Part shown: positions 23,212-25,462 of the stretch, in pieces
Layout of the letters: each line of letters begins with the position of its first letter
Numbering within the stretch: position 1 is the first letter of the stretch
Program-made: the position numbers and the translations under genes
Notes under the pieces: generated by a model
The model's input: the letters and a program-made list of their open reading frames with translations, nothing else
Database searches by the model: none
Told to the model about the DNA's origin: nothing
Virus record (IMG/VR): IMGVR_UViG_3300030522_000009
Coordinates: 1-37,814 of that record
Length of the DNA stretch: 37,814 bases
Direction: 5' to 3' (one strand)
Source: a virus

Positions 23212-23271
23212 CTGCCCCGGCCTGGGGCAGATCTGGGGCAGACCTGGGGCAGGAGTGCCCACGCTGCCCCA
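23212..23271. repeat. attP left arm: integrase arm-type repeats
   Basis: Three direct copies of CTGGGGCAG start at 23222, 23233 and 23244, exactly 11 bases apart, and two inverted copies (CTGCCCC at 23212-23218 and CTGCCCCA at 23264-23271) flank them. Such helically phased repeats beside the core are what the N-terminal domain of a tyrosine integrase binds. Matching copies lie on the other side of the core at 23506-23525. Confidence 0.7.
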
Positions 23272-23366: not shown

Positions 23367-23414
23367 GTCGGGGTGGCGGGATTTGAACCCACGACCTCTT
23401 CGTCCCGAACGAAG
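23367..23414 (-). other. attP core: 3' half of tRNA-Pro(CGG)
   Basis: Read on the minus strand it matches the tRNA-Pro anticodon arm onward: CTTCG TTCGGGA CGAAG (anticodon CGG), the variable loop, the T arm with GTTCAAATC, and the acceptor end CACCCCG plus A. The 5' half (D arm) is not present: the bases beyond 23414 do not continue the gene. This is the pattern of a phage attachment site that rebuilds the 3' end of the host tRNA gene on integration. It lies 120 bases from the integrase stop. The exact core length needs attL/attR sequences. Confidence 0.88.
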
Positions 23415-23505
23415 ATCGACGATCATTACAGGGTCCCTCCCATTTCCTCTGGTGTGCAGGTCAGCGGGGCTCTATGTAGTTGACGCAGCGTCAGGTGCGG
23501 CCGAT

Positions 23506-23525
23506 CTGGGGCAAATCTGGGGCGA
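23506..23525. repeat. attP right arm: integrase arm-type repeats
   Basis: CTGGGGCAA (23506-23514) and CTGGGGCGA (23517-23525) are 11 bases apart, in the same orientation as the three copies on the left side. They lie right after the core and just before the end of the integrase gene. They probably form the second arm of attP. Confidence 0.65.
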
Positions 23526-23534
23526 AAATTGTGA

Positions 23535-25085
23535 TCATGGTCTGATGGCCCGCGGTTGGCGGAGAGGCGTGACGCCCTCAGCGCGCTCTACGAGCAGCCG
23601 GTCCAACGCTCCCACAGCTGACCTCGGGTGCATCGCCAACCGGGCGTCCAGAGCCTCCTGCCACACCTCCGTCAAGCCCAACATCAGCCGTTCTCGCATC
23701 GCGTCCGTCACGTGCGAGTACCGCGCCTGCACCGAGCCGTCCAGGTGCCCCATCCGCTCGTCCATGAGCTTGGGAGGTGTCCCCAGATCCTCCATCAGGG
23801 TCTTGGCCACGTGCCTCAGCCCGTGTGGAGTCAGCCCTTTGGCTACTGGCGCCCAGCACACCTCGGCCCGCTCTGTAGCCCCACGGCCGCGGGCAGGGAC
23901 CCCGGGCCAGGGCTCGGCCAGTAGAGGCACCAGCCGCTTCGGCTGTGGCGCCTTCGGGGGGTACCAACCGGTGGCGGCCGGCTGGAACAGCCACGTGGCG
24001 AATCCGCTGCGCCGATGGTGCGCGGCGTGCTCGCCGGTCGTTGCTCCCCTCTCGTATCCCAGTTCGGTCATGACCTCGATAACACGGGCGCGCGTTCCTT
24101 CCGTCACCCGCTCCGGTCGGTTCAGGACGTTCGATACGGTCCCTACGGAGACTCCAGCGCGGGCGGCCACTTCCTTCAGTGTGATTCCGCTCCCAGACTT
24201 TCCATTCGGAGCGCCGTATCCCGTGAAGAAATATTTCTTTCCGTGACAGTCGCAGGCTTTCAGGGTGCGGCTCTTGCGGAACTCAATCAAGAGTCGGGAA
24301 AGCCAGGGCGTGACATCGAGAGTCCGGTACGAATCCTCTTTCGGTGGACCCTCCTCTAGCTCCCCGGAATCCAGTTCGTACAGCTGGTGCTCGACACGGA
24401 TTGTTTTCTCCCGGACGTATTCGGGCTCTAGGCCGACGAGTTCACCCCACCGCATTCCTGTCTCGGTGTCGGCCACGATGAGGACGAACTCGTCGTCGCG
24501 GCCGGACAGGAGGCTCGCGCGCTCGGCCACCAGAAGGGCGCCGAGCGCGTTGGTGATCGCTTTCTCCGGGGCACGTCGGGCCGAGTTGCCGGCGCGGCGC
24601 CCGCGGCCTCGCTTACGGGCCGCAGGGTTGGTAGGGATCAGTCCCTGTTCCACCGCGTCGCTCAGCATGACGTGCAGCGTGCCGCGCCACGTCTTGATGC
24701 TGGACGGCTTGTAGCCGGCATCCTTCTCGGTGCGCTCCCACCGCAGCACGGTTTCCTTGTCGAGCTGCTTGAGCGTCAGGTCCCCGAAGTGGGGGAGGAG
24801 GTGCTCCTCGATGTGGTGGCGGTAGTTCTGCATGGTGGACGAGGCGAGCTCCTGCTCGGCGTACCACCGGTTCGCGTACTCCGCGAACGTCTCCAGGCCG
24901 AGCTTCGGATCGCGGTGCCGGCCGCTGCGCACGTCTGCCTCGGCGTCACGCGCCGCCTTCAACGCTTCCGACTTGGTGCGGTAGATGCAGGCGTCCCCGG
25001 CCTCGTCACGAACCGTGAGCTTCGTACCCGCCGCGTCGCGGTAGCGGGCCCGGAAGCCCCCAACCAACTGCTCAGTCCACGCCAT
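23535..25085 (-). CDS. int: Tyrosine integrase with inserted LacI-type HTH
   Basis: A 516-residue site-specific recombinase that would integrate the phage at the host tRNA-Pro gene. Residues 1-60 are an AP2-like arm-binding part, about 65-155 the core-binding SAM-like domain, and the catalytic domain begins around 180. Catalytic residues are visible: R212 (TGMRWGELVGLE), K249, H421 and R424 (HGLRHVAKTL), H447 and Y456 (ARYSHVTD). Between K249 and H421, residues 301-347 are a complete LacI-family helix-turn-helix (TLKEVAARAGVSVGTVSNVL then NRPERVTEGTRARV), coded at 24045-24185. Most integrases of this type are about 380-420 residues, so the extra length is largely this insertion and its flanks (about 285-415). 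All catalytic residues remain. Confidence 0.92.
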   Translation of the reverse strand: MAWTEQLVGGFRARYRDAAGTKLTVRDEAGDACIYRTKSEALKAARDAEADVRSGRHRDPKLGLETFAEYANRWYAEQELASSTMQNYRHHIEEHLLPHFGDLTLKQLDKETVLRWERTEKDAGYKPSSIKTWRGTLHVMLSDAVEQGLIPTNPAARKRGRGRRAGNSARRAPEKAITNALGALLVAERASLLSGRDDEFVLIVADTETGMRWGELVGLEPEYVREKTIRVEHQLYELDSGELEEGPPKEDSYRTLDVTPWLSRLLIEFRKSRTLKACDCHGKKYFFTGYGAPNGKSGSGITLKEVAARAGVSVGTVSNVLNRPERVTEGTRARVIEVMTELGYERGATTGEHAAHHRRSGFATWLFQPAATGWYPPKAPQPKRLVPLLAEPWPGVPARGRGATERAEVCWAPVAKGLTPHGLRHVAKTLMEDLGTPPKLMDERMGHLDGSVQARYSHVTDAMRERLMLGLTEVWQEALDARLAMHPRSAVGALDRLLVERAEGVTPLRQPRAIRP

Positions 25086-25115: not shown

Positions 25116-25361
25116 CTACCGCGCGGGTTCCCGCATCTTCAACTGCGGCTCGGGGACGTCCTCGCTGAGGTCGACGATCTCGCCGTTCCAGAGCTGCCAG
25201 ACGTCCGCAATGTCCAGCCAGGCGAAGGCGCCGCAGTTCAGGGCCGCCACCTGCTCCTCGCTGTAGGTGCCTTCGTGGAGGATGAACACCGCTCCCCCGC
25301 GATGGGCCTTCACTACAACCGGTGCATCTCCTTCGGTCCGCCCCAGCCTGAATGTGATCAC
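25116..25361 (-). CDS. Hypothetical protein upstream of integrase, 81 aa
   Basis: The best start is GTG 25361, with GGGGGGCGG just upstream; a longer frame reaching 25418 lacks a ribosome site. It contains APVVVKAHRGGAVFILHEGT, then YSEEQVAALNCGAFAWLDIA and WQLWNGEIVDLSEDVPE. It is transcribed with the integrase (30-base gap). No HTH is visible, so it is not an obvious excisionase. It may be an integration accessory or unrelated; proteins of this kind occur beside integrases in Streptomyces elements as I recall, but without known function. Confidence 0.55.
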   Translation of the reverse strand: MITFRLGRTEGDAPVVVKAHRGGAVFILHEGTYSEEQVAALNCGAFAWLDIADVWQLWNGEIVDLSEDVPEPQLKMREPAR

Positions 25362-25462
25362 GCTTCCGCCCCCCTGAACCGATCGCGTACGGCTTGTCCC
25401 ACCGCCGAGTCCGGTCACGATACATATACAGAGCGTCTACACAACAGTGCGAATCAGTCACG
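25362..25462 (-). promoter_or_regulatory. Putative promoter of the integrase operon
   Basis: The 101 bases between the repressor and the 81-residue gene hold the most A/T-rich stretch nearby (about 25419-25432, GATACATATACAGA). On the minus strand a TTCGCA-like -35 sits 17 bases before TGTATA, giving a plausible promoter. A GTAGAC half-site (25435-25440 on the minus strand), as found in the operator cluster, overlaps it, so the repressor may also control integrase. Confidence 0.4.

Follow-up and report, generated by a model that had tools for sequence, protein, structure and literature searches.

A LacI-type helix-turn-helix inserted in the catalytic half of a Streptomyces phage tyrosine integrase and conserved among its relatives

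Tyrosine integrases of the lambda and Tn916 type normally read DNA through their arm-binding, core-binding and catalytic domains. In Tn1549 Int a family-specific beta-hairpin (H248-P263) is inserted in the catalytic domain and touches DNA, and according to the available part of the published account its deletion leaves DNA binding in place while cleavage and strand exchange are impaired (PMC5871717). For actinobacteria, Ghinet et al. 2011 (PMC3218068) described the AICE tyrosine integrases of elements that sit at the 3' ends of tRNA genes and named a pSAM2 subfamily; in the available part of that paper LacI is mentioned once, as a separate regulator gene in a figure of Frankia elements and not as an integrase domain. 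At the level of titles and abstracts no published LacI domain within an integrase was found, most subscription journals and supplements lying beyond that search. The present study analyzes an integrase locus in a stretch of 37,814 nucleotides from a virus (IMG/VR record IMGVR_UViG_3300030522_000009; hereafter the window). A sequence-only reading had placed a LacI-type helix-turn-helix (HTH) within the catalytic half of this integrase, and that arrangement holds and has been kept in relatives that belong to elements flanked by direct repeats of a tRNA end.

The left half of the window carries the genes for terminase, portal, capsid and endolysin, and the DNA matches among phage records (window 14000-37800 compared) were short and fell at the lysin genes of 13 Streptomyces phage records. 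The window is that of a Streptomyces phage, and its integrase would insert viral DNA into the bacterial chromosome. The protein matched the phrog_1 integrase family (E 1.7e-46) and exceeded the Pfam cut-offs for Phage_int_SAM_3, Phage_int_M and Phage_integrase (PF00589, residues 416-461, 29.3 bits against a cut-off of 27.1). The catalytic R-K-H-R-H-Y set is present in order, and in a 39-sequence alignment R212, K249, R424, H447 and Y456 were invariant with H421 at least 90% conserved, in keeping with the earlier assignment of all six residues; the window's own copy should therefore be active, as we infer from this set. A whole-protein AlphaFold2 model (48 sequences, mean pLDDT 82.8) matched Tn1549 Int (6en2; Z 18.9, 282 residues, 3.4 A) and lambda Int (1z19; Z 15.6, 248 residues, 3.1 A). 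In the model the N-terminal region has strands at residues 3-7, 10-16 and 22-24 and a helix at 38-53, an order of elements from which residues 1-55 are probably the arm-binding domain. This strand-strand-strand-helix order and the putative arm repeats flanking the core place the integrase in the heterobivalent class. Locus features are collected in Table 1. C278 and C280 before the HTH and H356 after it (24018-24254) are invariant in 48 of 48 aligned members with or without the HTH, and may form a metal site at the foot of the insertion. The small open reading frame directly upstream is conserved in the phage clade and had no Pfam or PHROG match; it occupies the position where many chromosomal relatives have, next to the integrase, a gene that is putatively excisionase-like by its motif, and by this position it is possibly a new recombination directionality factor.

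Table 1. Features of the integrase locus, in window positions
Feature	Position	Strand	Basis
Three arm-type repeats TGCCCCAG, 11 bp apart, far side of core	23222..23251	-	sequence
Putative attP core, 48 nt identical to 3' half of Streptomyces tRNA-Pro(CGG)	23367..23414	-	exact 14-mer run against tRNA-Pro of L013 and L011
Two arm-type repeats GCCCCAGAT, 11 bp apart, between integrase gene and core	23504..23523	-	sequence; also in L001, L003, L111, L120
Tyrosine integrase gene (516 aa)	23535..25085	-	open reading frame and translation; Pfam integrase and LacI domains; phrog_1
Catalytic domain, C-terminal part, residues 356-482, with H421, R424, H447, Y456	23640..24020	-	PF00589; conserved columns
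Inserted LacI-type HTH, residues 301-346, without hinge helix	24048..24185	-	PF00356; homologs; fold match; absence in sisters
Catalytic domain, N-terminal part, residues 175-288, with R212 and K249	24222..24563	-	invariant columns of the 39-sequence alignment; model
Core-binding SAM-like domain, residues 66-160	24606..24890	-	Phage_int_SAM_3 / Phage_int_M; matches to lambda Int and Tn1549 Int structures
Arm-binding-type N-terminal domain (predicted), residues 1-55	24921..25085	-	AlphaFold2 secondary structure; arm-type attP repeats
Small open reading frame (100 aa) directly upstream of integrase gene	25116..25418	-	similar frames in L001, L003, L111

The LacI-family HTH had been assigned to residues 301-347 (24045-24185), and Pfam LacI (PF00356) matched residues 302-345 there with 59.1 bits against a cut-off of 27 (HMM search E 3.7e-16). 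AlphaFold2 gave helices at 303-310, 314-322 and 329-342 with pLDDT of 83-90 in the ten-residue blocks from 301 to 340, and flanking linkers at 293-299 and 347-350 with pLDDT below 50; in the model the HTH thus forms a domain of its own, made of three helices and joined to the rest by linkers of low confidence. The structure prediction bears out an HTH fold at 301-347: modeled alone (34 sequences, mean pLDDT 88.0), the segment matched the LacI-family headpieces, best of all CelR (5ysz; Z 9.8, 49 residues, 1.1 A), and the top 36 structural matches, with Z of 5.0-9.8, were LacI-family proteins by title or by known family, row 37 having Z 4.7. A LacI hinge helix sitting in the minor groove had also been proposed and has to be given up, the RNxSARQLRAG-type stretch of host regulators being absent from the integrases, which continue downstream of the HTH with a variable linker and then their own H-[WPH]-RR helix. 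None of the 19 Pfam matches (threshold E 1) was to a periplasmic-binding-protein-like ligand domain, and the remaining chain is integrase.

An assembly artefact or a frame fusion is unlikely as a source of this architecture and was set aside because homologs in independent genomes and viral contigs share the same insertion: Pfam LacI matched at the same place in 45 of 48 aligned homologs, and by a family HTH profile the three without it are L119, L121 and L122. Single scans gave 2 loci among viral contigs and 45 among genome contigs, and a profile scan of viral contigs gave 13 loci, two of them repeating earlier contigs. Among Streptomyces, 139 of 295 genomes matched at E up to 1e-13, and by hand count the best match reached E up to 1e-100 in 68 of 295, with at most five candidates scored per genome. 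A class-wide search with L119 (threshold E 1e-40, at most three candidates scored per genome) matched 15 of 394 genomes and yielded true HTH-less sisters next to HTH-bearing ones. A phylum-wide survey with the C-terminal part of the integrase (loci L050-L079) matched 129 of 396 genomes at E up to 0.001, with no close relative beyond the centre genome and a best other match of E 2.5e-9. By the tree labels, HTH-bearing integrases are spread over streptomycetes, micromonosporas and pseudonocardias.

The length of the insertion was measured on a common alignment, from the strand ending in F-x-G to the invariant histidine before the next helix. This span is 64-69 residues in 58 HTH-bearing proteins and 5-6 residues in 14 of 19 HTH-less proteins, including the closest sisters (L159, L160, L162-L164 and L168). 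Since these closest sisters cross the point with 5-6 residues, as against about 67, the HTH is an insertion. The other HTH-less proteins have 25 and 18 residues in the span (L153 and L154) or 65-69 residues of sequence unrelated to the HTH (L165, L166 and L169). A tree of these 77 rows (58 HTH-bearing and 19 HTH-less), built without the HTH columns, needs three changes of label. The starred branches force at least two of the changes, and the HTH-bearing L002 groups beside an HTH-less clade with support of 86. The tree is compatible with one capture and several losses as well as with two captures. There was also a different insert in the HTH-less L122 (6001-7686, residues about 420-461), where a segment rich in cysteine and resembling a zinc finger separates the same helix from the H-x-x-R box, matching phrog_5500 at E 5e-5 and PF24623 at E 8.6e-4, the latter below its cut-off; the catalytic half of these integrases may accept DNA-binding modules repeatedly.

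Patterns in the recognition helix point to the source of the HTH. Twenty LacI-like host genes were fetched, chosen by similarity to the query, and eight of them (L180-L187) have the form GVSxGTVSNV[LI]NRPD followed by VR[NS]xxxxQLR in the hinge region. The integrase HTHs have the same GTVSN-type helix class, including those of the divergent L049 and L175 lineage, and identity over the HTH with the best-matching host regulator was 63-73% in six of seven integrases compared and 55% in L029. This supports capture of the HTH from one class of host LacI regulator, and the agreement of insertion position and recognition helix argues for a single capture with losses. In the host GTVSNV[LI]NRPD regulators the HTH is followed by a hinge region, whereas the integrases lack the hinge and no ligand-binding domain was matched in them.

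The putative attP core starts at the 5' side of the anticodon stem, 120 nt beyond the integrase stop codon, and the GCCCCAGAT and TGCCCCAG repeats around it are putative arm sites. This core, identical to the 3' part of a tRNA, and the direct repeats in relatives mark the integrase as tRNA-targeting. When a 35-base stretch of tRNA-Pro was searched for with up to two mismatches, the integrase gene of HTH-bearing elements was bracketed by two copies of this stretch in the same orientation, 16-28 kb apart, in nine of 12 genomes; no bracketing pair was found in the other three genomes searched (G005, G1042 and G1044). Elements lying between direct tRNA repeats are naturally taken to reflect past integration by these integrases. 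The core is oriented oppositely with respect to the integrase gene in the window clade (window, L001, L003, L111 and L120) and in the chromosomal clade (for example L013), which would put the integrase at opposite ends of the integrated element. In a 19.3-kb chromosomal element (L208) four proteins were scanned, with only a weak FtsK match (E 0.0069) and a match to DUF2637 (3.1e-5), too little to call the element conjugative. C-terminal remnants of the same integrase family occur in L015 (9082-9231), L031, L035, L037, L038, L040, L042 and L044; those of L015, L035, L037 and L044 adjoin tRNA-Pro, and L031 lies beside a second element, L022, a pattern suggesting that a single site was used repeatedly or in tandem. 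Several matches covering only the C-terminal part had prompted the idea that attP lies within the integrase gene and that the LacI segment was left behind when an element integrated into a host lacI gene, but the partial copies look like remnants, and the idea is rejected because the core, a tRNA-Pro half, is outside the gene and the gene is full length in integrated elements.

Taken as a working explanation, and one toward which we lean without great confidence, the captured headpiece would be an extra DNA-binding module in the intasome of an active integrase. A temperate Streptomyces phage would use an active heterobivalent integrase to target the 3' half of tRNA-Pro(CGG), and an ancestor of the family would have captured a host LacI headpiece of about 45 residues into the short loop before helix 362-372. 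Without its hinge helix, the headpiece would hang on two flexible linkers with a reach of roughly 10-15 residues and, being inserted directly before helix 362-372, would start from core-site DNA; the presumed counterpart of this helix in Cre and XerD recognizes the core site through the major groove. With the integrase on attP, the tethered headpiece would take hold of a half-site close to the core or the arm sites and thereby stabilize or orient the intasome, from which recombination would benefit. Against an intasome module it can be said that a LacI headpiece alone, lacking hinge helix and dimerizing domain, should bind weakly, that no site for the HTH was found in the loci scanned and that several HTH-less relatives still sit at tRNA genes. 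We judge such an accessory grip on DNA the most likely role, self-regulation next, and docking of a protein or a vestigial state less likely.

Because LacI headpieces normally bind promoters, the HTH could instead bind the promoter of the integrase gene or of an excisionase gene and tune integrase synthesis, coupled to attP assembly, a role to which we give a modest chance. It resembles a class of host regulators with the word TGAAACGTTTCA exactly present upstream in four of eight stretches (L203-L206, upstream of the LacI regulators L180, L181, L183 and L184, all with the [IL]GTVSN helix). TGAAACGTTTCA is the probable operator of this class, with L186 lacking it, and the four occurrences make TGAAAC a plausible half-site for I/L-G-T-V-S-N helices. 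It is missing upstream of the L-type L186 (stretch L207) and of three V-type regulators (stretches L200-L202), and the window helix has V at the first contact position, as have those V-type regulators. The lack of a hinge or dimerization domain speaks against self-regulation, as does a search for the palindrome, which gave no support to the suggestion that the integrase senses an operator either: no TGAAACGTTTCA-type palindrome with up to one mismatch occurs in 60 loci (690,207 bases), although this says little because shuffles of 25 loci give none either, and the window helix differs at the first contact position. In the whole window there were three palindrome sites at up to three mismatches versus 2.62 expected. 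TGAAAC occurs between the integrase gene and the tRNA in six of 24 loci, these being related, against 0.8 expected from mononucleotide shuffling, and is missing from the window's att and integrase-upstream stretches. TGACCTG, AAGATC and paired arm-like repeats were tried as sites specific to the HTH and rejected: they also lie beside the HTH-less integrases L160, L163 and L164, and TGACCTG, before the tRNA end, also at the HTH-less L153 and L154. No att motif can be assigned to the HTH because HTH-less integrases have the same motifs, and a binding site for it was not found in the att regions, integrase-upstream DNA or family loci scanned.

The absence of a DNA target in these searches and the flexible tether would also fit a headpiece that has lost DNA binding and docks an excisionase or a host factor, and an excisionase-like gene does lie beside the integrase in many relatives; this appears improbable, the DNA-recognition helix being the most conserved part. 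From 114 of 1,035 possible pairs of 46 sequences, those with pS of 0.05-0.55, which are related and not independent, dN/dS was 0.13 in the recognition helix (residues 312-324), 0.30 in the HTH, 0.24 and 0.22 in the catalytic parts, 0.29 in the core-binding domain and 0.34 and 0.45 in the linkers. The recognition helix is the most constrained region measured, as a 13-residue stretch compared with whole domains, and the HTH overall is under about the same constraint as the core-binding domain, which weighs against the intasome module. T316 and S318 were found in 46 of 46 sequences, S313 in 45, and N322 and T331 in 44; we take these positions to be DNA-backbone contacts in Lac repressor. The same purifying selection argues against a functionless passenger tolerated in a loop. 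Such a passenger could account for the functional look of the HTH-less sisters, and the three label changes in the tree would fit losses, but no row of the 55-row main clade lacks the HTH, 29 of the 30 best Streptomyces loci have it (the remaining one is a frame interrupted by stops), and a vestigial state is accordingly more improbable still.

A tRNA-Pro(CGG) anticodon arm lies at most 4 kb downstream of the integrase in 33 of 51 rows examined (48 HTH-bearing and 3 others), with one or two mismatches in three of them (L048, L111 and L120); of the 18 rows without it, eight have fewer than 60 bases of downstream DNA, and among the remainder L007 and L028 are beside tRNA-Val and L029 beside tRNA-Pro(GGG). 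Control of attB specificity by the HTH, through reading of part of the tRNA gene or of the DNA next to it, is unlikely, and the least credible role considered: all 33 rows are HTH-bearing, but the HTH-less sister L168 is at tRNA-Pro(CGG), the two rows at tRNA-Val bear the HTH, and the HTH does not explain tRNA choice or att layout because HTH-less sisters have tRNA sites and att motifs.

Returning to the headpiece as part of the intasome, a speculative and rather unlikely extension is that these are integrases with two inputs, in which the headpiece must find its own half-site, in element or host DNA, for synapse or for integrase expression. If so, recombination would be gated by a captured regulator head, and other inserts such as the zinc-finger-like one of L122 would be parallel solutions. 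There is a practical side as well, in that the database records of the two annotated homologs examined both carry the name LacI family DNA-binding transcriptional regulator; with such labels, integrases of this kind may be overlooked, and with them the elements that they mark. The HTH-less sisters are natural comparisons, and the architecture suggests a way of grafting an extra DNA-binding head into an integrase.

The window protein is a tyrosine integrase, of a known kind, with one borrowed known domain. It shares with lambda and Tn916-type integrases the order of domains, the fold, the catalytic residues and an attP with a core and arm repeats, and differs from them in the LacI-type HTH in the catalytic domain and in a longer segment from the next helix to the H-x-x-R box. 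In Tn1549 Int, as far as the available part of its description goes, the insertion is a short hairpin near R225, which we take to be the first catalytic arginine, whereas in the window integrase it is a sequence-reading type of HTH placed far after that residue. What is added to the known arrangement is a further, presumably sequence-specific reader in the catalytic half, kept by selection across actinobacterial groups.
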